Below are positions 455 to 52,600 of a stretch of 64,000 nucleotides of DNA, one piece after another; positions within the stretch are counted from its first letter, which is position 1, and every line of letters begins with the position of its first letter. The translations under genes were made by a program, and so were the position numbers. The notes beneath the pieces are model-generated. The model had not been told where the DNA came from and did not search any database. It was given only the letters and a program-made list of their open reading frames with translations. Source of the stretch: Quercus robur (taxonomy: Eukaryota > Streptophyta > Magnoliopsida > Fagales > Fagaceae); the NCBI RefSeq assembly GCF_932294415.1, contig NC_065544.1, forward strand, positions 35,520,310 through 35,584,309, written 5' to 3'.

Positions 455-1605
455 TTAGTAGTACTTTCGTAGGTGCTCGGTGTTCCATGGGTGTGGTAAT
501 TTCTGTCCTTCCAACGTTTCCAGGTGGTAAGTACTTTTTCTCTGCCACGACGAAACTCGATAAGGACCTTCCCAATTGGGGCCGAGTTTCCCTTGGGTAG
601 GGTCCCTAGCGTCGCCCATGACCTTTCTAAGAACAAGGTCTCCAACTTGGAAGTCTCTGTGTCGGACCCGAGAGTTGTAGTGTTTGGCCATGCTGTCCTG
701 GTACCCAGCGAGCCTTTGTTCTGCTGTTGCTCTGATCTTGTCCACTAGGTCGAGCTGTAGTCACATAGCCTCGTCGTTTTTGTTCTCATCATGGTTGTGT
801 ACCTTGTAACTTGTAAGTCCAACTTCGGCCGGGATGACTGCTTCGCCTCCGTACGTCAGGCGGAACGATGTCTCTCCTGTGGGTGTTCTTGTCGTCGTCC
901 TGTATGCCCATAGTATACTCGACAATTCTTCGGGCCATATACCCTTTACCCCCTCGAGCCGAGTCTTGATAATCTTGAGCAAGGATCGGTTCGTGACTTC
1001 GACCTGGCCATTAGCTTGAGGGTGGGCGGGGGAGGAGTAATGGTTCTTTATTCCTAACTGTGAGCAAAAATCCCGAAAGGGGTCGTTGTCGAATTGCCTC
1101 CCGTTGTCCGAGACAAAGACTCTAGGAATGCCGAACCTGCATATGATGCATCTCCAGACAAAGCTCCGCACGTTCTTCTCTATAATCGTGGCCAGAGCTG
1201 CAGCTTCCACCCATTTCGTGAAATAGTCGATGCCCACTACCAAGAATTTCAGCTATCGTACGGCTGTAGGGAATGGTCCTATAATGTCTAATCCCCATTG
1301 TGCGAACGGCCATGAGGCCGTCATCGGGGTCAGCTCTTCGGTTGGTTGTCTAATAATATTGCTGAACCTTTGGCACTTGTCGCAGGCCCTGACATAGGCT
1401 TCGGCGTCCTTCTGCATGGTGGGCCAATAATACCCAACTCGCACAAGCTTGTGTACCAACGATCTGGACCTGAGTGGTTTCCGCAGATTCCTTCATGCAC
1501 CTCTCTCATGACGTAATCTGCCTCTTCCGTACCCAAGCATCTCAAATATGGTCGGGAGAAACCTCTTTTGTAAAGGACGTCTTTTATCAGGACAAACCTT
1601 GCCGC
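455..1605 (-). pseudogene. Integrase region of the Ty3 element (broken)
   Basis: The HHCC zinc-binding region lies around 1290-1545, ending in CDKCQRF. The catalytic core around 850-1243 shows GIDYFTKWVEA, VSDNGRQFDND and QANGQVEVTNRS, which carry the D,D,E residues. The C-terminal chromatin/DNA-binding part runs to a stop at 455. A one-base frameshift near 1455-1470 splits the HHCC region, and an in-frame stop lies near 1245-1255. The frame left of the shift matches the DDE core, so this was one protein. In the family it inserts the cDNA into the host chromosome. Confidence 0.88.
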
Positions 1606-2157
1606 CTAGACCTTAAGTTTCCTTGCGGCTTCCTTTTCGTCTGGTAAGACCCCATCTTTTAGGTTTGAAACTAACGGCGTTGTCCAGCTACTGTCGGAGC
1701 ATATTTCCTGCATGTTGTTGAGATTTATTAGCGGAGAAAGCTGCACGAAAGAGAGTATATTACCAGGGATGACCATTTGTTCTGTTGAAGCGGCCTTCGC
1801 AAGGCGGTTGGCTCGCTCGTTTTCTTCTCTGGGAATTTGGACAACTTTGGCTTCTAGGTCATCCACTCTCGCCCTTACTTCATCAAGGTACTTCTTCATC
1901 TTTTCGCTCTTGCACTTATAGTCTCCATTTATTTGGTTGGTGATGACCTGTGAATCGCAGTAGATGACTACCCTCGCGACTCCAGCTGCCTTGGCAAGGT
2001 CGAGCCCTGCTATCAAAGCCTCATACTCTGATTCATTGTTGGTGGCAGGGAAGTCGAGACGGACCATACATTCAATGGTGTCTCCTTCGGGCGATTGTAG
2101 CACAATGCCGGCCCCTGCGGCTTGTCTGGTGGACGATCCGTCCGTATATATGCTCCA
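1606..2157 (-). pseudogene. Second (archaeal-like) RNase H domain of the Ty3 element
   Basis: Right after the stop that ends the first RNase H the reading frame resumes with YTDGSS, GAGIVLQSPEG, NNESEYEALIAGLDLA and VVIYCDSQVI, the acidic motifs of an RNase H fold. Tat-clade plant elements carry such an extra domain before integrase. The frame ends in TAG at 1606 where relatives usually read a glutamine, and the same frame goes on beyond it toward integrase. Confidence 0.82.
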
Positions 2158-3144
2158 TTAAGGGGACTCCGTTGCCCCCTTGTCTTTGTCATGAGTGAAT
2201 TCAGCTATAAAGTCAGCGACGATCTGTCCCTTGATGGCGGTCCACGGGCGGTACTGAATATCAAATTCGCTCAGTTCTATAGCCCATAACGCCAACCGTC
2301 CCGCGGCCTTGGGGCTGCTCATTGCCCGCCGTAAGGGTTTGTCAGCCAGGACGTTCACCGTATGAGCTTGGAAGTACGGTTTGAGCTTGCGGGCTGCCGT
2401 AACTAATGCAAAGGCAAGTTTTTCCATGGGCGGGTATCTTTCTTCGGCACCGTGGAGCGCTCGGCTTGCGTAGTACACGGGCTTTTGCACTCTCTCTTAT
2501 TCTTTGACCAAGGCCGCTCTAACGGCTACGGGGGAGACGGCTAGATAGAGAAAAAGCTCTTCTCCTGGCTACGACGGGCTCAGCAATGGTGGGGAGGAGA
2601 GGTAAGCCTTCAATTCTTCGAATGCTTGCTGGCTTTCGTCAGTCCATTCGAAGGATTTTTTCAATGTTCGGAAGAAGGGTAAGCACTTGTCCGTTGCCCT
2701 TGACACGAACCTATTTAGTGCTGCTATCTTTCCATTGAGGCTTTGCACCTCCTTCACATTTCTTGGTGGTGCCATGTCCATAATAGCCCGAATCTTGTCC
2801 GGGTTCGCCTCGATTCCCCTCTAAGACACCATGAATCCTAAGAATTTTCCTGCCGTCACTCCAAAGGCACACTTCCCTGGATTGAGCTTCATGTTGTAGG
2901 AGCGAAGTGTGTCGAATGTTTCTTTGAGATCTCCTAGATGATCTTCCTCCCTCCGGCTTTTTACTAGCATGTCGTCCACGTAGACCTGGACATTCCTCCC
3001 AATTTGTTGCGCGAACATTTTGTTCCTGAGCCTTTGGTACGTTGCGCCTGCGTTCTTCAGGCCGAAGGGCATGACCTTGTAACAGAAGAGGCCTTGGCTG
3101 GTCACGAACGACGTTTTTTCCTGGTCGGCTTCGTGCATTCGGAT
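2158..3144 (-). pseudogene. Reverse transcriptase (second half) and RNase H of the Ty3 element
   Basis: The RT part holds QGLFCYKVMPFGLKNAGATY and the active-site YVDD (near 2970-2985). Thumb/connection sequence (PRNVKEVQSLNGKIAALNRF) follows, then RNase H (KPVYYASRALHGAEERYPPM, ending ADFIAEF). All pieces are in one frame but are cut by stops at about 2821 (TAG), 2569 (TAG), 2482-2505 (TAA) and 2158 (TAA). RT copies the element RNA into DNA and RNase H removes the RNA strand. The copy is dead. Confidence 0.9.
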
Positions 3145-5685
3145 TTAGTTGTACCCCGAGAAAGCGTCCATGAAGCTCAGCAACTGGTGTCGGGCCGTAG
3201 AGTCTACTAAGACATCAACCCTCGGGAGGGGGTAGCTATCCTTGGGGTAGGCCTTGTTAAGGTCGGTGAAGTCCACACACATCCGCCATTTCCCGCTCGC
3301 TTTTTTGACCATTACTACATTTGTTAACCAGTCAGGATAGTATACTTCCCTAATGAAGCTCACTTCCTGAAGCTTTCTGACTTCCTCTGCTATGGCTCGG
3401 TCTCGCTCGGGGGCAAACACCCTCTTCTTTTGTCTGATAGGTGGAAAGGCGGGCGATACATTCAACCTGTGCACGATGACTGAAGGATCTATTCCCGGCA
3501 TATCTTCATGACCCCATGCGAATACGTCCCGATTGCATCTGAGGAAGGTTATGAGCTCCTGACGGACTGTGGGGTTAGCGAGCGTTCCAATTTTGGTCAT
3601 TCGGCCAGGATCGGAACTGTCAAAGGGTATCTCTTTTAACTTCTCAACCGGCTCCGTTACCGTCCGGTGCTCTTCTATGCTTAAAGCCTGAACCTGATCC
3701 TCCATTTCCATCATGGCTATGTAGCATTCGCGCGCGACCATCTGACTCCCGCGCAGCTCCCCTACTCCGTAGTCAATTGGGAACTTTATCATTAGGTGGT
3801 AGGTGGAAGTTACCGCCTTCCATGAGTTTAGCGTGGGCCGCCCGAGGATAGCGTTGTAGGCTAACGAGCAATCGACTACCAAGAATGTCACGTCCCTGGC
3901 TATCTGTTGAGGGTAATCACCCACAATTACGGATAATGTGACCGCGCCCAGTGGGAATACTCGGCTCTCGCCGAAGCCAACAAGCGGGGCATTTGTTGGG
4001 ATCAATCGCTCCCTGTCGATCCTCATCTGCTGGAACGCTATATAGTACAAGATATCTGCTGAACTGCCATTGTCGATCAGCACCCGGTGCATATTGTAGT
4101 CTCCTACATGCAAGCTGACGATGAGTGCATCGTCATGTGGATGGTGAAGGCGTCGCGCGTCTTCTTCTGAGAATCTGATTACGGGACCTTCTCTTCGTGC
4201 TATCTTCGGCACGACTCCCGTCAGCTGAACATTTTGTGCCATCCGAAGATAGGTCTTGCGTGCTTTCTTGGATGACCCGGCGGCAACCGTTCCTCCTACG
4301 ATCATCCTTATATCCCCGATCGGGGGCCTCGGTCGCTCATTGTCCCGTCGGGGGTGTTGGTCTTGTGCGGGGGGATCCGCTTTCTCCTTGCTAACGAATC
4401 CCTGCAGCTTTCCTTGTCTGATAAGGGCCTCAATCTGCTGCTTGAGGTCATAGCAATCAGCCGTGTCGTGGCCATGGTCGCGGTGGAAATGGCAATACTT
4501 ATCCCGGGAACGTTTGTTTGGGTCACTCTTCAGCTTTCCCGGGAACGTCAGAGCCTCTTCGTCCTTGATTTGCATAAGGACTTGATCTATCGGGGCTGTT
4601 AGCAGAGTGAAGCTCGTGAACCTTCCCCCTAGGGGCTTAGGGCGCCTTTCGTCCCTTCGGTCTCCTGTCCTTGCCTTCTTTCGGCCTTGATCCTGCCGAG
4701 TGTCTTCCTGCCTTTCTCTTTTCCTGGGCCTCTCTTCCCGAGCTAACAGCGCATCTTCAGCATTCATATATTTTGTGGCGCGATAAAGTACTTCCAACAT
4801 GGTCTTTGGGTCGTTTTTGTATAGGGAGAACAAAAACTTACCCTTCTTCAAGCCATTCGTGAATGCTGCAACAAGTATCTTATCGTCGGCTTCATTGATC
4901 GAGAGTGCCTCTTTGTTGAAGCGGGAGATGTAGGCTCTTAAAGTTTCATCTTCTCGCTGCTTCATACTCATCAAGCAAGCCGTAGACTTCTTGTATCGAT
5001 GGCCTCCAATGAAGTGTGCGGTAAACTGAGCGCTGAGCTCTTTGAAGGTGCTGATGGAGTTTGGTGTCAGTCGGCTGAACCAAATTCTCCCTGCGCCCTT
5101 CAGCGTTGTAGGGAAGGCCCTACACATGATGGCGTCCGCTACTCCTTGAAGGTGCATTAGGATCTTGAAGGTCTCCAGGTGGTCTAGTGGGTCCTTGACC
5201 TCGTCGTAACTGTCTATCTGTGGCATGCAAAACTTACTTGGTAATGGGTAGGAGTTGACGGTGGCGGTGAACGGCGAGTCAGTTCGGTTGACAAGGTCGT
5301 CAAGGTCGCTTGATACTCGTCCCTTGAGAGCATTCATCATAACCTCCATTTGTTCCTTCATGGCCTGCATCTCCGTGATAACAAGTGGCGGAGTGGTTTC
5401 TGCGAGGGAGGGGATGCTTATGTTCTGTCGTTTCGGTTTGTTCGGGGCGTTGCTGGCCTGGGGTCCCTCCTGGTTTCTTCTGTCGGCGCTGGTTCCTTCC
5501 TGATCTGCTCCTTGGTTGTTGGGAGCTGCATTTTTCTGTTTCAGTTGCTCTTCTAGGTCGTAGTTTTGTTTGGTGAGGCGCTCCACGGCAGTGGCGAGTG
5601 TCCTCACCTGTCTTTCAAGCGCAGTCGTAGGGGCTTCTTCTTCTTGAACGTCGTTGGTGGTCACCATTGAGCGAGTGAGTACCAT
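3145..5685 (-). pseudogene. Gag, protease and first half of reverse transcriptase of the Ty3 element
   Basis: This long open frame starts best at the ATG at 5685 (MVLTRSM). The upstream extension to 5766 crosses the primer-binding site and LTR edge and is unlikely. An N-terminal coiled-coil-prone part precedes the gag domain (around 4870-5230, with MCRAFPTTLKGAGRIWF). A zinc-knuckle-like CHFHRDHGHDTADC sits near 4450-4500. The protease motif LIDNGSSADILY lies near 4050-4085. RT begins near 3430 (RQKKRVFAPERDRAI) and runs to SFMDAFSGYN, where a CAA-to-TAA-type nonsense change at 3145 stops it. Gag forms the particle and protease cleaves the polyprotein. Confidence 0.92.
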
Positions 5686-5722
5686 GTAACTCTTTTGTCT
5701 AGGAAGCGATAATGTGCTACGC

Positions 5723-5740
5723 TTCCCACAGACGGCGCCA
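5723..5740 (-). other. Primer-binding site of the Ty3 element
   Basis: Read on the minus strand, TGGCGCCGTCTGTGGGAA starts six bases inside the LTR end. TGGCGCC is the usual start of binding sites that pair with the 3' end of a tRNA ending in GGCGCCA, as in Tat/Athila-type elements. The tRNA identity was not checked. Confidence 0.75.
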
Positions 5741-5745
5741 ACTAA

Positions 5746-6312
5746 TGATGCCGAAAATAATACCACCAGTGAGTCACACGTCCCTCGTACATCGCAAATG
5801 GCACCTGCACAACGAAAAGGAATAACCTAGCAGAGAATACCGGTGTGGTACCGGCCAAACACCCTCCGAAGGTCAAGTTAGAACTATTCTCACTGCTCTA
5901 GAGTGCTAGAGAGGGTAAATTATGCGTACCTTGGGTTGCGAGGGTGCTTAGGTTTTTATAGTAGCGAGGGTTACCCCTCTTTTCCTTTGAGTAGAAGTCT
6001 TTTCCTTATAGGAGTCCTCTTGAGCGTATTTTATGGGATCTTTTCCTTATAAGGATCCCTTGAATATTATCTAGCGTGGGAAGCAAGACAATTCCTTATA
6101 CGTAGCGTGGGTAGCAAGTAAACCTATGCTCGGTCCGTCAGCCTCAATTTACTTCCTTCAGCTTTTTGGGCGTCGGTCTAGTAATGTCGTCATCCTTGGA
6201 GCCAGCTGACCCTATGACCGTCAGCTATAACACCGTTTGTAATATCCGGAGGATTGCACTAAACCGTCAGTTTTATGTTCCGTGTGGCTAGGCTCACCTT
6301 TTATCCTCATCA
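5746..6312 (-). repeat. 5' LTR of the Ty3 element
   Basis: The 567-bp stretch begins TGATG and ends CATCA, a perfect 5-bp inverted terminus. It abuts the primer-binding site on its gag side. On the minus strand a TATA box (CTATAAAAAC, near 5953-5962) would set a transcript start about 30 bp further on. Boundaries are inferred from one LTR only. Confidence 0.8.
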
Positions 6313-17000: not shown

Positions 17001-20000
17001 GTGAAAAAAGCAAGCATTTGGTCATCGAATCTATCTAAGTTCTCAAAGGTCCACCGATTACGTTCCCTCCAAATACACCACATCAAACACAATGTAACTA
17101 AATTCCAAATGTTAGATGAGTGCTTCCCCAACCAATTCCACCAACCAAAGAGGAAATCTGCCACCGATCGTGAGGGAACCCACAAAATCCCAAAAGATCT
17201 AAAGACAAAGCTCCATAGCTAGTGAGCCTTTCTACAATGTAACAATAGATGATCCACTGTCACCCCACTACAACAACACATAATGCACCAATCAACGAAA
17301 TCAAAGCCCCTAATCCGCAAATTATCACCCATAAGAATCCTATCCCATGCAACTGTCCAAACAAAGAAAGCAACATGCTGGGGTGCCTTAATCTTCCAGA
17401 TGCCTTTCTAAGGAAAAACAACGGAAGATGAACCACGTAGCTTATGGTAAAACGAACGGATATTAAAATCCCCATTCTTCGTCAACTTCCATCTCATACG
17501 ATCACCATCATCCGCTGAAGGTAAGTTAAAGACCAAGAATCAAAAGAAATCATCCACCACATCTGCCTCCCAATCATTAGGACCCCGAATAAAACGAACA
17601 TCCCAACTTCTTTTGTCCCTCTCTCCTTGGCATATCAAAGAAGAGTCTACTGAGGCTGCTCTGTTAGTAGCAATATTGTATAAGACCAGAAAAGCCAAAT
17701 GGAGAGGAAGATCCCTACACAACCAGTCTGTCCTAAATTTCACTCTATTCCCCTCCCCAACCTTAAACAGAATATTTTTGCTAAAAGCTTCCCAACCCAT
17801 CCAGTTACTTCTCCACAAACCACACCCATGAACACCCCTTCCCAACTTGGAGGTCCACCTTCCATTCTTCCCCAAATTTCAAAGCTACCACCCTCCTCCA
17901 AAACCGTGAAACGCCAAAGCCATTTTCCTAGGAGGGCTTTATTGAAAGTGGTCAGTTTCCTAATTCCTAAACTGCCATAGGCAATAGACATACACACTTT
18001 ATCCCATCCCAACAAATGTGTCTTGGAATCACCCCACAAAAAATCCCTTTGCATCTTCTCAATTTTGTTAGCCACATGAGTTGGAATGGTGAAAAGAGAT
18101 AAGAAATAAGTAGGGAGGCTAGATAACGTACTCTTAAGCAATGTTAGTCTAGCACCTTTCAACAAATACAACTTCCACCTGGCTAACTTTCGTTCAATTT
18201 TTTCCAAAATAGAATTCCAAATAGAGAGGGACTTATGAGACGCCCCCAATGACATACCAAGATAAGTCATTGGCAAAGACCCAACCTTACAACCCAATAT
18301 CTCTGCCAGAGCATGCACATTATTCACCTCCCGTATAGGAACCATTTCACTCTTAGATACATTAACCTTCAAGCCGGTCATAGCCTGAAAAAAATGTAGT
18401 AACAACCGAACATGTAGGAGTTGCTCCACATTTGCATCACAAAAAAGAATAGTATCATTTGCAAACAACAGGTGCGAAACACATTCCCCTCCACCCCTCC
18501 TACCATCAGCCCTAAAGTCACTAAGTAATCTTGCCCCCTCCATTCTCTTCACCATCCTACTAAACACCTCCATCATCACCAAAAATAACATGGGAGATAG
18601 CAAATCCTCTTGTCTCAAACCCCTTGAACTACCAAAGAAGTCAGCTGGAAACCCATTGACTAGCACAGAAAACTGAATTGTGGTTATACAGGTGTGAATC
18701 CATTTACACCATTTCTCCCCAAAGCCCATTTTTTTCAACAAATTCAGAAGAGCCCCCCAATTCACACGGTCATAAGCTTTCTCAATATCTAGCTTACAAA
18801 TCACCCCCAGAATCTTACTCTTCACCCAACTATTAACACATTTATTGGCAATAAGAACTAAATCAAGGATTTGTCTGCCTCCCACAAAACTATTCTGAGA
18901 TTCTGATATGAATTGGTCTAACACCACTTTCAAAAGATTTGCCAAAACCTTGGCCAAGATCTTATAAATATTCCCCACCAAGCTAATAGGTTTGAAATCT
19001 CGAATATTAGAGGTATCATTCTTCTTTGGAATTAAGACTTTAAAGGTAGCATTAAGAGATTTCTCAAACTTATAGTGCTGATAGAACTCTTCAAAAATTG
19101 CTAAGACATCTCTTTTCACAACTCTCCAGCAATGATGGAAAAAGGCCATAGAGAAGCCGTCTAGACTTGGAGCTTTATCTCCTTCCATTTCTGTGACAAC
19201 TAACAGTATCTCCTCCTTCTCGAACCTCCTTTCCAATCAGCCCCTCTCCATCCTTCCAATTTGACCAAACTCCAAACCTTCCACAAAAAGCCTCCACTCC
19301 TCTGATTCTTGATACAAGGTTTTATAAAGTTGAACAACCTGAGCAGTCACTTCAGCTCCCTCCTCATAAATCACCCCATCTACTTCTAAAAAACTCAGAT
19401 GATTATACCTTCTATGGGAATTGGCCACCATGTGGAAGAACTTAGTATTATTATCGCCCTCCTTGATACACAACATCCTCGATTTCTACCTCCAAGAGAT
19501 TTCCTCCAAAGAAAGAACTCTACTAGAGACCTCACTCCATTTCTCTCATTGAACTCTGCCTCACAGTGTCCAAGATCCACTTCCTTAATACTAGGTGAGA
19601 CTTGAGAGGTTTATTACTTAGGTGTAGTAAAAATGGACATCAAGGTAGGAGATGGTCATGTGTGACATCAAGGTAGGAGATGGTCATATTACTACTTAGT
19701 CCTGTTCATGATTTCTAGAGGCCCGACTACCTCAAATTAGTCAGAAATATTGTTCCCGGTTATTTTTTACGTCTGTCTTGGATTGTTATGGGTGGATTTC
19801 GCAGTTTTTTTATTGAATCGAAGCTGTTTCAATTGGTGGTTGAGGAAGGGGGGAACTTTTTTTCCCTTAGGATTTATGAACGGGGAAAGTATTTCATGCA
19901 ATCAGTTTTTATGGGTAAGAGTGCAGCACGATGGTTAATGCAAAGCTTGGAACACACAGTGATTGGGATTAACCCCAAACACTTCTTCACGCTCAGGGAA

Positions 20001-23000
20001 GGAGACACTGCATACACAGTGCAATGGGGCTCTAACTCGTTTGGGCAATATTTGTTAGTAACAGAGTTAAAAGTTGGCGGGATGAGATCATTATTCCTAC
20101 AGGCAAGGCACAACGAGGTTGGAGGGCCTTTGGTATTGAATTAAGGAGAATGCTTGAACCTTCTCATTATGCGTTGGGTTTTCCAAAAGCTTTATCGTCT
20201 AAGTTGGGTTCAGAGGTTCACCCTTCTCGGTCTTTTGTTGAAACGGTAAAAGCATCTATGCAGGGAAGGAAGCATGCGCTCCAGCCCTCCATTAAAGAGA
20301 CAGAGAAGATTCAAGTAGTGGAGAACACTATGCCGCCTCCGAGAGATGAAGATGGGATTCAGGTGGTGGCTTTTGAAGTTCCAACTAATAAGGCTATACC
20401 GATTGCCGTGGGTGGAGTGGAGGGGAGTCACCGTGGTATTAATGAAGATGCTAAGGTTAAGGAGAAAATCCCGGAACAAAATAAATTCAGATTGAATAAT
20501 TTGAATTTGAAAGAGGTTGATTTTGGTAGGGAGCGTCAAGTTAGGAGGTCTAGTTGGTTAAGGAAAGGTTTGACTGTGGAAGTAAATGAATTTGGCAAGA
20601 GGCAGGTGTCTTGGCAATGTTTTAGGAGTGATAAGCAAGCTGTAAAGTGGGTGGCACGGGAGGATCTTTCTGCCCAGGTTGGCATTCAGGGTTTGGACAA
20701 TGGGTTTTCTGAAGCCCAGGCATCTTGTTTGGGTATTTATAAGAGTTGCTCAGGCCCACTATTGCCTAGCCCTTTTTCTTTTGAGGAAGGGGCTTGCTCC
20801 AAGCAGTCCAATAATAAACCCAGTCCAAGTTCTACAGGCCCATTTGTGGAAGGTGGTAAGGCTCAGGCAAACACATCAGTCCCAAGCTCCACATCAGATG
20901 GTATGAGTGCTAGTGTGCTACCTGCGAGCTCGGCGATTGATTTTCTACCGACACGGAGGACGGCGATGGCTCTGGTGGCTGACTTGAGCTCGAGCTCACC
21001 CATATCGGTACCGGAAGTCCACGGCGGGAGTGGGTCTTGCGTCCAGGTGAGCCCGAGCTGGATCACCCAGCACCCCACCTTGCCGATATCGGTAGCAGAA
21101 GTGGTCAAGGCCACTCGTGAGCTGGGTTCACCACCCTTAGCTCCGACATGCCTCTCGCTGGAGCCGGCGAAGGTGTTGCCCTCAGAGGATCCAATACAAA
21201 AGCCGGCAGAAGGAGTTTTGTCTGTTCTTCAGCGTTGGGTTTTGCCGGTGGAAGAGTTGGGGTGCACCGGGATTCTTCTGAAGCTGGGTTTCAGGCTCAG
21301 TTCTGTCGGGTGGGTTGATATCTGAAGCTAAGAGGTTAGTAATTCTCGATTTTGTGCCGAGATGGATCAGAACTCCTTTTCCCGATCAGTTTCTGGAGTT
21401 TCTGCGAGCTGGGTCGATGGGTTTCGGAGTATTAGGTCAGGAGGTTAATACTTTCTCTAGTAAGGAGCTTTCAAGCTTTCCTAGGGAGGTTGTGCTTGCA
21501 AGGGATGCAGTTGATTTTTCTGTGGGTTTTGGTGAAAATGAAGTGTCAGATTGTTTACCTCTGCAAATCATTGATCCGGGTGTGTCAACAAATTTGGAAG
21601 AATTGGAGGAGGCCACTGAGGTATTGAGTATTGAGAATAAGTTAGATATTTCTAGTTGGGTGAAGCACAGAATTCTTGGGTTCAGTAAATTGGTTGGGTT
21701 GTCAACGAATCGACATGAGAAGTTGTGCATTGCTCTCTTACAGAGGCTAGAAACTGAGATGGAAGTAGCCAATGTGTTACACAGGAGAGAAATGGGTAGT
21801 AAAAAAGTGGCTAAGTCCAAAAACAAGGGACGTAGAGAGTTGCAAAACTTGATATGCTCGGTGAATTATGAGAGGAGATAAAGGGTGGTTTTGTGTTGGT
21901 GTCACTAGTTGGGGATAGTTTAGTGTCTATGAAGATAAAAATGATTTCATGGAATGTTAGAGGTTTAAATGATCCTCAAAAACGACTTGTGGTGAAGAAT
22001 TTGTTGCGGGAGTGGAAGTGCGTTGTTGTTTGTTTACAAGAGACGAAAATTGCTAGCATGAATAGACAATTGGTTTGTAGTTTGTGGGGTTGTCCATATG
22101 TGGATTGGGCTGTTTTGGAGGTTGATCGGACTGCTGGTGGTATCTTGCTTATGTGGGATAAAAGGGTTTTGGAGAAGGTAGAGGTTATGGTCGGCATTTA
22201 CTCAGTTTCGGTTAAGTGGCAAGGGGTGGGGGACAGTTTTATATGGGCATGCTCAGGGGTTTATGGCCCAAATGAGAATGTTGAGAGGGGTCACATGTGG
22301 GATGAGTTGGTGGGTATTCAACAGTATTGGAGGTTACCGTGGTGTTGCTTTGGGGATTTTAATATTGTTCGCTTTCCAAGTGAGCGTAGGGGTGAGGCAC
22401 GTTTGACATTGGCTATGGAAAAATTCTCTGAATTTATTGAGGATCTTAACTTGGTAGATTTGCCTTTAGACGGAGGTAGATACACATGGTCCAATGGCAC
22501 TGATCAACCAGCGATGTCTAGGATTGATAGAGCATTGGTCACTCCAGATTGGGAGGACCACTTCCCTGATGTTCTTCAAAGGATTTTACCACGTCCTATC
22601 TCAGATCACAGTCCAATTCTTTTGGAGGCAGGGGGAATGGCAAGGGGGAAAAGTCCGTTCAGATTTGAAAATATGTGGTTGAAGACGGAGGGATTTGTGG
22701 ATAGAGTTCAATTTTGGTGGAATCGGCATTCTTTTGTGGGTACACCTAGTTTCGTGCTTGCAAAAAAATTGAAGGCTCTGAAAGAGGATATTGTGCAATG
22801 GAATCGCCGAGAGTTTGGTAATGTAGAGCGTCAGAAGAAACAATTATTGGAGGAACTAAAAAAACTAGACGCCAAGGAGGGGGACTTTGGTCTCACTGAT
22901 GGGGAGAAAGGCCATAGGGTAGCTTTGAGGCCCCAGGTGGAACATCTTCTTTCTTTGGAAGAAATTTCCTGGATACAAAAATTTAGGATGTTATGTATCA

Positions 23001-26000
23001 AGGAAGGGGATAATAACACCAAGTTTTTTCACAAAATGGCTAATTCTCATAGAAGGTTTAATCATCTAAGGACTTTGGAGGTGGATGGGGTGGTTTTTAA
23101 GGAGGAATCCGAGGTGTCTAATCAGGTAGTACAATTTTATAAAACTTTGTACAATGAGACTGAGGGTTGGAGGCCTTTTGTGGAGGGTTTGGAATTTGAT
23201 CGTATTGGGGATGTGGAGAGGGTTTGGCTTGAAAGGAAGCTTGAGAGGGAGGAGATACTTCAAGTTGTACGTGATTTGGAAGGGGACAAAGCTCCAGGTC
23301 CAGATGGGTTTACTATGGCTTTTTATCATCTCTGTTGGAGAGTAGTGGAGAAAGACGTCTTAGCGGTCTTTGAAGAGTTTTTTCAACATTATAAGCTTGA
23401 AAAATCCCTTAATGCTACTTTCATTGCATTAATTCCTAAAAAGAATGATGTCTCTAATATTAGAGATTTCCGACCTATTAGCTTGGTGGGGTGTGTATAA
23501 AATCTTGTCTAAGGTTTTGGCAAATCAATTGAGAATGGTTTTAGATCAGTTGATCTCTGAGTCTCAGAATAGCTTTGTGGGTGGGAGACAAATTCTTGAC
23601 TCGGTTCTTATTGCGAATGAGTGTGTGGATAGTCGAGGGAAGAGTAGGGTTCTTGGAGTCATTTGTAAACTTGATATTGAGAAAGCCTACGATCATGTGA
23701 ATTGGGAGACTTTGTTGAATTTGTTGCATAGAATGGGCTTTGGAGTGAAGTGGTGTAAATGGATCCGTACTTGTATATCCACAGTTCAGTTCTCTGTATT
23801 GATTAATGGGTCTCCAGCTGATTTCTTTGGTAGTTCAAGAGGTTTAAGACAAGGGGATCCGCTATCTCCTATGCTGTTTTTGATTATGATGGAGGTGTTT
23901 AGTAGGATGTTGAGAAGAGTGGAGGAAGCCGGTTTGATTTGTGGCTTTAAAGTTGAAGGTAGGAGGGGTGGTGGGGAATGTGTTACACATCTACTGTTTG
24001 CAGACGATACTATCCTATTTTGTGATGCGGATGTAGAGCAAATCCTTCATATTCGGTTGTTGTTACTTAGCTTGCAGGCGGTAATAGGTTTGAAGGTTAA
24101 TGTGCATAAGAGTGAAATGGTTCCAATAGGGGCGGTTGATGATGTGCATGCCCTTGCTGAAATTTTGGGTTGTAAAGTCGGAAAGTTACCTATGTCTTAT
24201 CTTGGCATGCCTTTAGGGGCTTCACATAATTCCCCTTCAATTTGGAATCCTATTCTGGAAAAATTTGAGCGGAGATTAGTCGGGTGGAAGAAGCTGTATT
24301 TGTCTAAGGGGGGTCGATTGATGTTACTCAAGAGTACATTATCTAGTCTTCCTATCTATTTTCTATCGCTATTCACAATTCCTACTCATGTGGCTAATAG
24401 AATTGAAAAGCTACAAAGGGATTTTCTTTGGGGTGATAGCAGAACTCATCTGGTAGGATGGGACAAAGTTTGTGCGCCTATAGCTGATGGTGGTTTGGGG
24501 ATAAGGAAACTTACTACTTTCAATAAGGCCTTATTGGGGAAATGGTTGTGGCGGTTTGGGAAGGAAGAGGATCGGCTATGGAGGAGGGTGGTGGCTTCAA
24601 AATATGGGGAAGAGTGGGGGGGGTGGACCTCAAAACTGGGTAGGGGAGTTCATGGGTGTGGTTTGTGGAGAGGTATTCGCATGGGTTGGGAGGATTTTAG
24701 TAAAAATTGTCAATTTGTTGTTGGGTTGGGGAATAGAGTGAGGTTTTGGCAGGATGGGTGGTATGGGGGTCAACCTTTTCACTTGGCCTTCCCAAGGTTG
24801 TATGGTATTGCTATTGATAAGGAGATATCTATTGAAGCCTCCTTGTCAAGGCAAGGGGAGGAGGATAGACGAACTTGGGATGTTTGTTTTATTCGAGAAT
24901 TTAATGATTGGGAGATGGAGGAAGGGCTGCATTTTCTTTGTATGTTGGGAGCTAATGCTCCTCCTATGGATGTGGGAGACAGGATGAGGTGGAAGTTGAA
25001 GGTTAATGGGGATTTTGATATCCGGTCATATTATAACAAATTAAGGAATTCTCCTTCAATTGTTTTTCCGTGGAAAGCTATTTGGAAAGTAAAGGCCCCT
25101 AGGCGAGTCTCCTTTTTTGTTTGGTGTGTAGCTTGGAATAAGATCCTAACGGGTGATAACCTAAGATTGAGGAGACTAATGCATTTTGTGGACTGGTGCA
25201 TTATGTGTAGACATTGTGGAGAGTCAGTAGATCATTTACTTCTTCATTGTGAGATGGCTTATCAGTTATGGAGCTTTGTCTTTATAACTTTTGGCTTGTC
25301 TTGGGTTGTACCTAGTTCGATCCCAGATTTGCTTTTTGACTGGTGGAATTGGTTGGGGAAACACTCGTCTCAGATATGGAATTTAGTTCCGTTGTGCATC
25401 TTTTGGTGTATTTGGAAGGAACGGAATCGGCTGACTTTTGAGGATTTGATTAGCTCCAGTGATCAGATGCTGGCTTCTTTTAGTGGGATTCTTTTTGATT
25501 GGTCTCGGGCTTGGGGACTCACGACTAGTGATTCTCTCCCTTCTTTCATTATCTCTCTTTCTCTTTGTAATTAATTTGTGGTTTGGTTTTCTTTTTTGCT
25601 TTTTCGTTGTTTCCTCCTTGTACTTTCTGGGTTTGCTCTATGTTTTTTTATGCATAGAGTAGCCTTTCGTATATATAACATTCTTACTTATCAAAAAAAA
25701 AAAAAAAAAGAATCTAAGGCCCCCAGTAGTTCTTTCTTTTGACGACTGACATTGCCAAACTCTCTACAGTTACATTGAATGATATCTTCTTTCAAAGCCT
25801 TCAACTTTTTAGCAAACACATAACTAGGTGTACCTGAGAAAGAATGGCGATTCCACCATGAGTAAACTCTATCAACAAACCCATCCGTCTTCAACCACAT
25901 GTTCTCAAACCGAAAAGGATTCTTCCCCTCACCATACCCCCTGCCTCCAAAAGGTAATAAAAGACTAACTTGAACTGAATGAAAATCAATCTATGAACGC

Positions 26001-28624: not shown

Positions 28625-29200
28625 TCAGAGCCGCAGATTTAAGTCAAGCTTCTGTGGCTCTGATGGTGGCTCTGGTAATTGCGAATCCAAACGAAAGCTG
28701 CCCGGCCACATCGAATCCATTGCATCCTCCAGTGTGAAGGGCATCCATGCCATTCCAAAACCTGTGTTGGTGTCATTAAATCTTGCTTCAATTGTAGTTA
28801 CATCTCTGCTTGGCTTTTGCACAAGTGAATGGGGCCGAATGCCAAGGGATCGTGACATGGGAGCGCTGATAGGCAATCCCATCATCGCCATCATCCTATG
28901 AGACTGGTATCTTCTGGCTGCACCTCTTTCCCTCTTGTGAGCATTCTGATGGCCCCCTAATGCTTGTGAACTAAAGAACTTTCTCATGCAGAAGTTGCAT
29001 GAAAAAACCTTGGTAGGAGTTTTTGGTTGTGGTTCAGAGTCTCCTGCTGTTGAGAGCAAATTCCTCCCTAGGCTCAGGTTCAGCCACTCTCCTGGATTAT
29101 TATCTTCAGTTCCATTGTTGTTGTCATCATCATCGATCACTATTTCACTCTGCCGTTTTTGTGCTCTTACTTCAGTTGCTTCTTCTTCCTGAAAGATCAT
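28625..29200 (-). CDS. Single C2H2 (QALGGH) zinc-finger protein with EAR motifs
   Basis: An intronless frame of 191 aa starts at the ATG at 29200 (MIFQEEEATEV). A longer frame reaching 29287 lacks an ATG there. One plant-type finger lies at about residues 66-86: FSCNFCMRKFFSSQALGGHQ, then NAHKRE. The invariant QALGGH is present. The C-terminus KLDLNLRL is a DLNxxL/LxLxL EAR repression motif, and an N-terminal LNLSLG is a second LxLxL box. An acidic run (DDDDNNN) lies between. This layout is that of the ZFP1/ZFP3/ZFP4/ZFP7 group: nuclear DNA-binding repressors, several tied to hormone response and trichome or seed traits. The exact orthologue is not assignable by eye. It reads toward the TIP41-like gene. 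Confidence 0.9.
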   Translation of the reverse strand: MIFQEEEATEVRAQKRQSEIVIDDDDNNNGTEDNNPGEWLNLSLGRNLLSTAGDSEPQPKTPTKVFSCNFCMRKFFSSQALGGHQNAHKRERGAARRYQSHRMMAMMGLPISAPMSRSLGIRPHSLVQKPSRDVTTIEARFNDTNTGFGMAWMPFTLEDAMDSMWPGSFRLDSQLPEPPSEPQKLDLNLRL

Positions 29201-29989
29201 GTCTCCAGACTCTCCAATTTCAATTAGGTGACAGGTGATGGAATGAATAGAGAGGCTTTGTGGATTGGTTATGATTGAACTCTTCAAAGAATTAGATCAA
29301 AGAAGAAGAGAGTAAATAAGTGGGGAGAGGTATCAGACTGTATGGGAAGTGAGATTGGAGGGTTTTATTTTATTTTATCTTATCTCCATTCAGTGACCCC
29401 ACCAAGTGATGCTTGGTGCTTCAGGGGACATTGCTTATGTCATCTTTACTGTTCTTCTATAGCTTTGGATTCCCCACTTTCATTTTTTGCCTTTCTTTTT
29501 CTGTCCTCAAATCGCTATAACTTTACATGGTTCTCTTTATAGTAACAAAAGAAATTCAAGGTTGACAATGATGAAACAAATCCTCGTTAGTCAAAACCAT
29601 AATCTTACCAATTTATTTGAACTGCCTGCCATGAGTGCTTCTTACCCACGAAGCAAACAGTTCAATTGGCTGAACTCTTGTGCATGGTGCTTGTTGATTT
29701 TGGTAATTTCTGAAACCATAGGATCAACCCAGGTGCTTGAAGGCTGAAATTTTTTGACAGAGGAAACTGTTTATGGCTCTAGAAGAGCTGATTGTTTGGT
29801 TGATAAACCCAAATCACTAGATTGTGGAGCATGAAGTGATGCAGGGGCAAGCTACTTTTACTGGATGTATTGGAGCACCAACTGCTTCTGAATTTTACAT
29901 TTTCAATTTTGTTATGTAATTCTTCCCCTTAGCGTATCAATAGTTGATTAGTGACGGAAGAGATTTAGTCAAGTATTCTAGTGCATCGC
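29201..29989 (-). promoter_or_regulatory. Upstream region and leader of the zinc-finger gene
   Basis: A CT-rich leader (read on minus: CTCTCCCCACTTATTTACTC) lies at 29290-29345. AAAATAAAATAAAACC near 29358-29375 is AT-rich but not a clear TATA box. No other gene seen. Confidence 0.4.
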
Positions 29990-46652: not shown

Positions 46653-49600
46653 CTAGACTGAGTATTTTTTCACACATTTTAACTGTGAATTGAATGTGTA
46701 GACTATGCCAGATAATATGTTTGCTGTGACTACAGTTCCTCTGTAGTGTAACATTTTTAAAGAATTCTGGTCCTTTGACCAAAGACCAACTTCATGAAGA
46801 TTGCCATCTTTCCAGCAGATGCTGACTGTCACCCCACCACGCGCCCTCAATCCTTTCACACAACCATCAGTCCATTTATCCCGGGGAAGAGCAGGAAGTA
46901 AGTACAGGTCCTCTATGGTGCTCTGGATAAGCATTTCTGAAACTGCTGCAATGAAACTGAAACCAAAATACTATTTAGCTGTGTTGATCACCAACATATT
47001 GATACCTCAATGTCAAAATCTAGTTGCAACAGGGTTTAAAGGAAAAAACAGCAGTTAAAATATATTGATTTGTTATTTTCAGATATTGCAAAGCTGCGAC
47101 ATGAACAAGAGACTTTGTCTGAGGCACATTAAAAGCAATTGAGTGTAGTGATACTTGCAAAAATAAAAATTCCACTGAAGGTTTCTTACTTTTTTTCCAC
47201 CTTAATTTCTGATTTTACTACAAGTTAACATGCTTATACAAAAGCACCAAAATGTGGACCCTGATACTAGCACATTAAACTTAAACAATGATGCTCCCGC
47301 ACTTGAAAAGATACAATTTATCAACAATATGACAAGGAAAATAAATACATTCATGCCACCCCCTCCCCACCCAAACCAAAAAGAAGAAAAAAGCCCTTCA
47401 ATCCTTCCCTTCTTTTCTTTTCTCTATTATGTTTTTAAAAAGTGCAACTCAAAGCTCAACTCCTGGAAGTTTGCAAAACCTACCAGATATACTTGGCATC
47501 AGGCTTTAGTAAGAACACAATCTTTTTTCTTTTTCTTTTTTTGAAAGGTTTAGAACTTTAGACAATCATTTGATGGTTGCCACAGTATCATTGGAATGCA
47601 CACAAAAACTGCTACTTACCCAAAGTTGGCATCAATCTGGAAAGGAGGGTGTGCTGCAAATAGATTACCATACAGTCCTCCTTCAAATGGTCTCTCAAAA
47701 TCTGGATCCACCAGCTTTATCAACTTCTTGACCATTCGATATGCATTGTTACTGTTGTAGAGACGCGCCCACAAAGCAGTTTTCCATGTAGTTGACCATC
47801 CCGGACCATCCTCTCCTGTTTAAAATGATGAAAAAGAAAGAAAGTAATATTATTTGACTACTGGTCCTAGCAATGTCAAACTTGATGAAGTCCAGAAAGC
47901 TACTCTAGATTTCAGGCTGCAAAATTTCATTAGAACAAGCTACTCTGTTGGAAGAAATAAGTTGGAGGCAAAAATCTAGAGTTCTTTGTGTTAAGGAAGG
48001 TGACAGGAACACTAAATTTTTTCATCGCATAGCTAACTCTCATAGGAGGGTTAATTCTATTGAGAGGCTTATGGTGGATGGGGCATTGTCTTCAGACCCG
48101 GCTGCTATAGCAGACTGTATCTCTCAGTTTTATAAGCAGCTTTATTTGGAGAATGTGGCTAATAGACCCGTATTAGATGATGTGGAGTTTGCTAGTATCT
48201 CGGTGGAAGATGCAAGTTGGCTAGATAGGCCTTTTGAGGAAGAAGAGGTGGTTGAGGTGATTAATGGTTTCAATGGTGACAAGGCACCTGGTCCAGATGG
48301 CTTTTCAATGGCATTCTTCCAGTCTTGTTGGGGCGTTTTGAAAACAGAAATTATGGCTGTGTTCCACAATTTCCATACTCAGGCGGTGTTTGAGAAGAGT
48401 CTTAATGCCTCATTCCTTGCCCTTATTCCTAAGAAAGTGGATGCTGTGGAGGTCAAGGACTTTCGGCCCATTAGTTTAGTTGGCGGGATTTATAAGATTA
48501 TCTCTAAGGTGTTGGCTAATCGCCTTCGTAGGGTGGCGCATGGGCTTATTTCGGATTCACAAAATGCTTTTGTGAAGGGTAGACAGATTTTGGATTCCGT
48601 CCTGATTGCTTCTGAATGTATTGATAGTAGATTGAAGTCAGGAGTTCCAGGTGTGTTATGTAAATTGGACGTGGAAAAGGCATATGATCATGTGTGCTGG
48701 GATTTTTTAATGTATATGCTGCAGCGTTGTGGTTTCTCTGAAAAATGGAGAAAATGGATATGGTATTGCATTTCAACTGTAAAGTTTTCTATTCTGATCA
48801 ATGGTAGCCCAACTGATTTCTTTGGTAGCTCTAGGGGGCTTCGGCAAGGGGATCCTTTATCTCCGTTGTTGTTTGATATTGTGATGGAGGCACTAAGCCG
48901 TATGTTGGATGTGGCTGCCTCTGTTGGGCAATTCTCAGGTTTTTCTGTGGGTAGTACGGCTGGTTCATCAGTGATGGTGTCTCACCTTTTATTTGCAGAT
49001 GACACTCTGATTTTTTGTGATGCTGAACCTTCTCAGATTGCTAATTTGAGGGCGATACTTGCTAGATTTGAGGAGGTCTCAGGGCTTCATATTAATTTGG
49101 GGAAGTCTGAGCTGGTTCCTGTTGGTGGAGTACACAATTTGGAGGATTTGGTGGGTTTGTTGGGGTGTGGGGAGTCTTCTTTGCCCTTGAAATATTTGGG
49201 TCTTCCTTTAGGTGCCAAATTTAAGGATTTATCTGTTTGGAATCCTATCCTAGAGAGAATGGAGAGGAGATTAGCAGGTTGGAAGAGAATGTATTTATCT
49301 AAAGGGGGTAAGGTGACTCTCATTAAAAGCTCACTCTCGTCTTTACCTACATACTTTCTTTCCCTTTTTCCTTTACCAGGGAAGGTGGCAAAGCGTATGG
49401 AGAAATTACAGAGAGACTTTTTGTGGAATAGGATTGGTGGTGAACCTAAAATACATTTAGTTAATTGGGCCAAGGTTTGTAGGCCTTTGCAGGAGGGGGG
49501 GTTGGGTATACGACGGTTGGGGAACTTTAATTCTGCATTGCTAGGTAAATGGTTGTGGAGGTATGGCATGGAGACTGATGCTTTATGGAGGAGGGTTGTA

Positions 49601-52600
49601 GAGGCAAAATATGGGAATATTTGGGGTGGTTGGTGTACGAAAAAGGTGACAAGTCCTTATGGAGCCAGCCTGTGGAGATACATTAGAAGTGGCTGGTTGA
49701 ACTTCTCTAAATTCCTTGTTTATGATGTGGGGGATGGTACTAGAGTGAAATTTTGGAAGCATTTGTGGTGTGGGGATGGTACTCTCCAAGAGGCATTTCC
49801 AGAGCTTTATTGTCTTAGTAGGTCAAAGGATTCCTCGGTGGCTGAAGTTATGGGTTGGTCTGCTGGGAGGTTTCACTGGAATGTGCAATTTCGTCGTCCA
49901 CCACAAGATTGGGAAGAAGAAGCCTTTGACCGGTTTATGGAATTGGTCTATTCTTCGACGGTGCGGGGGTTTGGTCCTGATAAGGTTTGTTGGAAACCTG
50001 CAAGGAATAGAGGTTTTGAGGTTAGAGGTTATTATAACTCATTCTACCCTCCTACTTTTGTTTCTTTTCCATGGAGAATGATATGGCAATCAAAGGTTCC
50101 CCCAAGGGTGGCATTCTTTTCTTGGTCTGCTTCCTTGGGTAAGATCTTAACAACAGATAACCTTCGTAAAAGACGAGTGATGGTGCTTGACTGGTGCTAT
50201 ATGTGTAAGAGGAGTGGGGAGTCGGTGGATCATCTTCTACTTCATTGCTCCATAGCTTGGGAGTTGTGGTCCATGGTTTTCTGCTTGTTTGGTATTCAAT
50301 GGGTTATGCCTCATACTGTTCTTGAGTTGTTTGAGGCTTGGCAAGGAAAGTTTGTGCGACATCGCCACATTGATGTTTGGAGAATGGTGCCTCATTGCTT
50401 GATTTGGTGCATTTGGCGTGAAAGGAATGATAGAAGTTTTGAGGGTTGTGAACGCTCTTTACTGGAGCTTAAGTCTTTTTTCCTACACACTCTCTTTGAA
50501 TGGAGTGTGGTTTTTTCTCATTTTTCTTGTTCTTCCTTTTCTTTGTTTCTTGACCGTTGTTCTTTTGTTTCTTGACTTGTGCCCCCATAGTACATCCCCA
50601 ATGTACTCGGTTTGGCAATCTTTTTATTATGAATAATATTATTACGTTATTTATCAAAAAAAAAATTTCATTAGTTGATATGCCAAAATCTTTACCATGG
50701 TAGCATGCATAGTGTGATGTCTAGTCCAATAAAAAGTCAAATTCCAAGTGAAAAGTTGGTATTTAAATATTTTAAATTTTATTGTGAGATATAATAGTAG
50801 ACCTCCTTTATTATTTAAAAGTCTGTATTCAATTGTGTGTGTGTTTGTATGTGCGTAGAAACAACATTTTGCATTTTAAAGTCACACAACATTTGGATTT
50901 TAACAGTTTCTATTGGTGATAATGTTTAACAATCTGATCATATAAGTATTTTATATTATAAGACATTTGAAAGTATAAGTATAAAATTCTCTAACACCCA
51001 TCCAATGTTATGTCATTCTGGTCACACCCAAGAGTCTCCAATAATCGCACTTGTGCTTTCTAGAGTTTATGCATCTTCTTCACCAATTTAGAATGACTTT
51101 TCAAAAATGTAAAATTAACACTTTTGTTCATTATTATGCAACAAATTTACATTTTGATTCCATTGAAAGATAAGGAATTAGAAAACAAAACAACCTCAAA
51201 TGAAAACCCAGAGCAAACGCCAATCAAACAGAAACCCACCAAAAAGGACACAAACCATTAAAGAAAGAACCATATTCAAATCAGGAGAAAAATGGAAATT
51301 AACCTTAAATTTCAAACATTATAATTAGTAGTTTAAAGTTTTTAAACTATATTTTTACTAGCATATTGAGTTTAAGAGACTCGATTTAGGGTCTATAAAT
51401 CGAGTTTTTGGGACTTGATTTTCATGGGTTGTTCACGTCTGATGTGGCACATTTTCCACATGGCATCTACCTGGAAATCAAGTCTCTAAGACTCGATTTA
51501 CATCTAAAAAGAAAACAAAGAAAACCACAGCTGACCCAAACACTGACAATTCTCAGCACCCCAAAATCACATAAACAGAACCCAAATTTCTTTCAAATTT
51601 CAAATACCAATATGCCTTCGATTCCCGAAGAGCCATTGCTAGCTCCAAACCCGGACCGGTTCTACATGTTCCCGATTCAGTACCCGAAGATCTGGGAGAT
51701 GTACAAGAAGGCCGAGGCCTCGTTCTAGACCGCCGAGGAGGTTGATCTCTCCGGCGACGTTCGTCACGGTCCGCAACAACCTCACCCAGCGCCACCCGTG
51801 GTCTGAGCTCGTCGACCCAGGTTGCGCTGGCCTGGGTCAGTTTGATTAGATTTTGTTCTTGGGTTTTTTGGGACTTTGGAAGTTTGAGAAAGGAGAGTGG
51901 GAGAAGAACTGAATCTGGGTCTCCACTCTCCAGACACTTGAAACATGAAAATATTTGTCCTGTGGATGTTACAGGTGGACACCACGTGAAAAAAAACGCC
52001 ACCTCAGACCCGATCAAAACATAAAAACCGACCCTCAAAAACTCGATTTATAGTCCAAAATCAAGCCTTTTAGTCTCGAGATGCTAGTAAAAAATATAGT
52101 TTGAAAACTTAGTCTACTAAATATAATGTTTGAAAATTAATGTTAATTTCCCGTTTTAGCCTTCAAATCATGTCCTCTTTTTAAGTGTTGCAGCAAACAA
52201 ACAACTAAAACACAAACCTGTTAGACCTACCACATTTGGATCTGAATCTAAAATTATTCTTAGATCCTCCTGTAACATGTCAACTCCCCTCAACAAGGGT
52301 GCATTAAAAAAAAAGGATCTTAGGGGGATGTTAATAGAACCTCAAACTTGGAGAGATGTTGGTTGATCAAAATTAGCACATTTTAGACTATATAATCTAT
52401 GCCTATCCCACAAAAAAAAAGGTTAAAGACTATTGTTCCAAATCTAGGGTGACATTGCAGCACCAAATAATCAATCTAGTTAGCTCCTAGCAAAATAAAT
52501 AAGTAAATAGAAAGATAATAAAAATTAACATAAATATACAAACCCCGTTTATAGAGAGAAGCCTCTGCAGCTTTACAGAGGTCCGGAGTTTTCTCAACAG

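Follow-up and report, generated by a model that had tools for sequence, protein, structure and literature searches.

A probable old Pack-MULE carrying the start of a ribonucleotide reductase small-subunit gene, located in an intron of a GH95 gene in an oak

The window analysed here, a stretch of 64,000 nucleotides of oak DNA, contains a GH95 alpha-L-fucosidase gene. In one of its introns, between long inverted repeats, lies the start of a second gene, that of the ribonucleotide reductase (RNR) small subunit (R2). This raises the question of what kind of element carries the R2 piece, and whether the piece acts on R2 genes or on the gene in which it resides. The initial annotation described the locus as a Pack-MULE with a captured R2 start, and each of the elements of this description was recovered, namely a target site duplication, long repeats, R2 homology and a position in the GH95 intron. 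Judged by its anatomy, the locus is very probably an old, non-autonomous and decayed Pack-MULE.

The element occupies positions 51284-52161 of the window (878 bp). A perfect 9-bp duplication, TTCAAATCA, abuts both of its ends exactly (51275-51283 and 52162-52170); perfect 9-bp repeats had been described before. The chance of one given 9-bp pair matching, computed from the composition of the flanks, is ~1.1e-5. The terminal inverted repeats (TIRs) measure 192 bp on the left (51284-51475, plus strand) and 193 bp on the right (51969-52161, minus strand), which agrees with the arms of ~190 bp reported initially. In a pairwise alignment of the left arm with the reverse complement of the right one, 150 of 190 ungapped columns are identical (78.9%), with 5 additional gap columns. 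The differences consist of 19 transitions and 21 transversions, corresponding to a Kimura distance of ~0.25. BLASTN aligns the two arms over 191 columns at 78% identity (E 1e-35), and the inverted-repeat local score of 165 was not approached by any of 300 dinucleotide shuffles, whose maximum was 32. The left side bears an extra, subterminal inverted repeat (51396-51500) just inside the TIR. Its 29-nt arms (51396-51424 and 51472-51500) are 86% complementary, and the repeat search found no counterpart on the right side. Within the window, BLASTN detected no further copies of the element, as all matches outside it had E values of at least 0.046.

The core between the arms carries codons 1-52 of a plant R2 gene on the plus strand (51612-51767). 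An ATG at 51612 is followed by an open frame of 38 residues, a TAG codon and 13 further residues. When the 38 residues were searched against the PDB with phmmer, the top match was the R2 chain 1h0n (E 1.3e-11). Of the 23 sequences listed, 14 were R2 proteins, all with E < 1e-5, and the other 9 were adenine glycosylases at E 0.77-0.97. The Pfam family Ribonuc_red_sm matched the core with E 3.6e-5 and 23.7 bits, which is under its gathering score of 33.6, and the core translation had no match in NCBIfam. When residues 1-52, with W in place of the stop, were searched against a large protein database, 4383 of 4535 candidates reached E <= 0.001, the best at 2.0e-25. The initial annotation had named a lack of RNR homology as grounds for abandoning its reading; R2 matches in the PDB, Pfam and the protein database dispose of this objection. 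The best match, from Striga asiatica, shares 49 of 52 residues with the piece when W is put for the stop, and 48 of 52 with the sequence as it actually stands.

Codons 1-52 align with plant class I R2 without gaps. We compared them with the best 120 of the 4383 relatives, drawn with a query that carried W at codon 39. In all 120, position 18 is C, and the window has TAC at this codon (C18Y). Position 39 is likewise W in 120 of 120, with the reservation that the query itself had W there; the window has TAG (W39stop). At position 53, where these 120 relatives have W or F, the window departs from the R2 frame. The R2 frame ends after 38 residues because codon 39 is a stop. With the match ending at codon 52, the R2 piece therefore comprises codons 1-52 in a dead frame. 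A functional R2 gene requires an open frame through the metal-binding domain, and here the stop at codon 39 and the end of the match at codon 52 preclude this. Unlike plant R2, the piece is incomplete, stops early, lacks the metal-binding core and encodes no enzyme. The core is GC-rich, as originally described (0.53 at 51606-51730 and 0.63 at 51731-51850, compared with 0.377 for the whole window), and it does match R2, but the initial annotation had missed the stop at codon 39 and thus the broken frame. If the donor codons were TGC and TGG, C18Y and W39stop are each what a single G-to-A change would produce, in both cases in a CTG context, which is a CHG site. Two such changes would fit decay at methylated cytosines, although this rests on two sites and a presumed donor. 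The stretch 5' of the ATG may, as a guess, derive from the donor's 5' UTR.

Beyond the R2 piece, a plus-strand stretch of 17 residues in a different frame (51766-51816) resembles PRA1. It was aligned with a sequence that we take to be an Arabidopsis PRA1 protein and that scores as PRA1 in Pfam (E 1.2e-49, match from residue 49 onward). The alignment spans target residues 45-61 with 10 of 17 positions identical, the target having been picked after the likeness was noticed. Its score of 62 compares with a maximum of 57 among 2000 shuffled targets and of 44 among 240 decoy proteins. The frame has no Pfam match, and a protein database search of it, with 2 candidates, gave no match at E 10. We therefore treat PRA1 as a possible second captured piece, a lead from sequence likeness. 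Two open frames tried in the remaining internal stretch (51817-51968) had no Pfam match. Across five core translations, R2 was the only Pfam family found, so no transposase was detected, and the ~490 bp between the arms leave no room for one. Rfam gave 0 matches across the window, and no tRNA genes were found in it.

Taken together, these features place the element among the Pack-MULEs, a well-known kind of element to which the present one is an added example. Pack-MULE insertions are flanked by target site duplications of 8-11 bp, usually 9 bp, and here TTCAAATCA occurs twice. Like the Pack-MULEs of rice, Arabidopsis, maize and tomato, the element combines such a 9-bp duplication and long TIRs, well within the order of 100 bp or more, with a small non-autonomous body (878 bp in total) and, enclosed by the repeats, a GC-rich fragment of cellular origin, R2 codons 1-52. 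The contrast between the GC-rich core and its AT-rich arms points in the same direction, and the 21% divergence of the repeats fits an old element. In contrast to those Pack-MULEs, the present element is known from one locus, and its repeats have diverged to this extent. Because this one locus is the basis, we infer transposition and capture from anatomy. PMC3310237 deals with Pack-MULEs and multiple-TIR MULEs, and describes how captures in rice and maize favour GC-rich sequence. The extra inverted repeat at the left TIR recalls the multiple- or tandem-TIR MULEs described there; unlike in these, it is 29 nt long, present on one side only, and does not amount to a full second TIR. PMC8903248 also gives the Pack-MULE hallmarks, and reports elements with pieces from more than one locus. 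A literature search joining Quercus with three MULE terms returned nothing. One Quercus paper names Pack-MULE in its reference list only, and a review was the single paper found to contain both Pack-MULE and ribonucleotide reductase.

The host gene lies on the minus strand, where the window matches GH95 proteins of Quercus and Lithocarpus. Our model has ten exons with GT-AG introns and an unbroken frame of 809 aa with a single terminal stop. Its product shares 797 of 808 residues with the protein of Quercus lobata, 796 of 808 with that of Lithocarpus and 793 of 806 with that of Quercus rubra. As the splice sites were chosen to fit the Q. lobata protein, part of the agreement at the junctions follows from this choice. 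The element sits in intron 8 (47816-52543, minus strand, 4728 bp, GT-AG), 382 bp from the donor site, which bears out the intronic location proposed at the outset. The same intron contains a LINE-type open frame of 888 codons (47909-50572, plus strand), antisense to GH95, with reverse transcriptase and zf-RVT domains.

Several other features were noted elsewhere in the window. LINE pieces in both orientations extend over 17743-25571, with a reverse transcriptase on the minus strand at 17743-19236 and endonuclease-like and reverse transcriptase frames on the plus strand at 21872-25571. LTR-retrotransposon pieces with gag, RNase H and integrase core are found at 764-5826 (minus strand). An open frame at 28628-29296 (minus strand) has a C2H2 zinc-finger-like stretch by eye and no Pfam match at E 1e-5.

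Could the insertion affect its host gene? A repeat-rich insertion might attract methylation and so change the splicing or transcription of GH95. The arms are predicted to form a hairpin of 158 pairs, the 4728-bp intron additionally contains the LINE, and MULE repeats in rice are tied to methylation and 24-nt small RNAs in PMC4858842, which also describes a drop in TIR similarity with age. However, the frame and splice sites of GH95 appear intact, and we regard such an effect as improbable.

An action in trans on R2 is the second possibility. Because GH95 and the R2 piece lie on opposite strands, minus and plus respectively, the GH95 pre-mRNA would contain R2 in antisense. RNA from the intron could then pair with R2 mRNA and give rise to small RNAs that lower the R2 level. 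Regulation by sense/antisense pairing has been observed with Pack-MULEs, as stated in PMC8277862. Folded on the GH95 strand as naked RNA, the element has a predicted energy of -351.6 kcal/mol, whereas 20 shuffles average -232.05 (z -15.9). In this predicted fold, however, the arm-to-arm pairs enclose the R2 piece in a loop, and although 112 of its 156 nucleotides are paired, 0 of them pair with the arms. Double-stranded RNA from folding back, and small RNAs cut from it, would therefore be expected to arise from the repeats and not from R2. The piece is also diverged and lies within an intron with good splice sites. Of the initial idea that RNA from this copy could target the parental R2 gene, the antisense direction holds, while the predicted hairpin speaks against it; we consider an action of this kind unlikely, with a very slim chance of being right.

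Slimmer still is the chance of the most elaborate version, a Pack-MULE that fuses R2 and PRA1 pieces and whose GH95-coupled antisense RNA tunes R2 and dNTP supply in oak-family trees. That a processed or segmental R2 pseudogene lies by chance between unrelated repeats is hardly credible: the R2 piece is indeed a pseudogene fragment, but the element that contains it is delimited by a duplication and long repeats, and the R2 match stops at codon 52.

We thus return to a decayed Pack-MULE as the preferred reading, and propose the following history. A Mutator-like element would have taken up, within its long inverted repeats, the beginning of an R2 gene and possibly a small part of another gene. 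Its insertion into intron 8 of GH95, by a transposase acting in trans, would then have created the 9-bp duplication. The element may since have been silenced and has probably lost its mobility; at present it is presumably spliced out and decaying, without a function of its own.

For the oak family, the locus would add an example of gene capture by a Mutator-like element to the genome record, the captured frame having decayed at sites consistent with damage from methylation. Antisense control of R2, if true, would connect nucleotide supply with a transposon residing in another gene.
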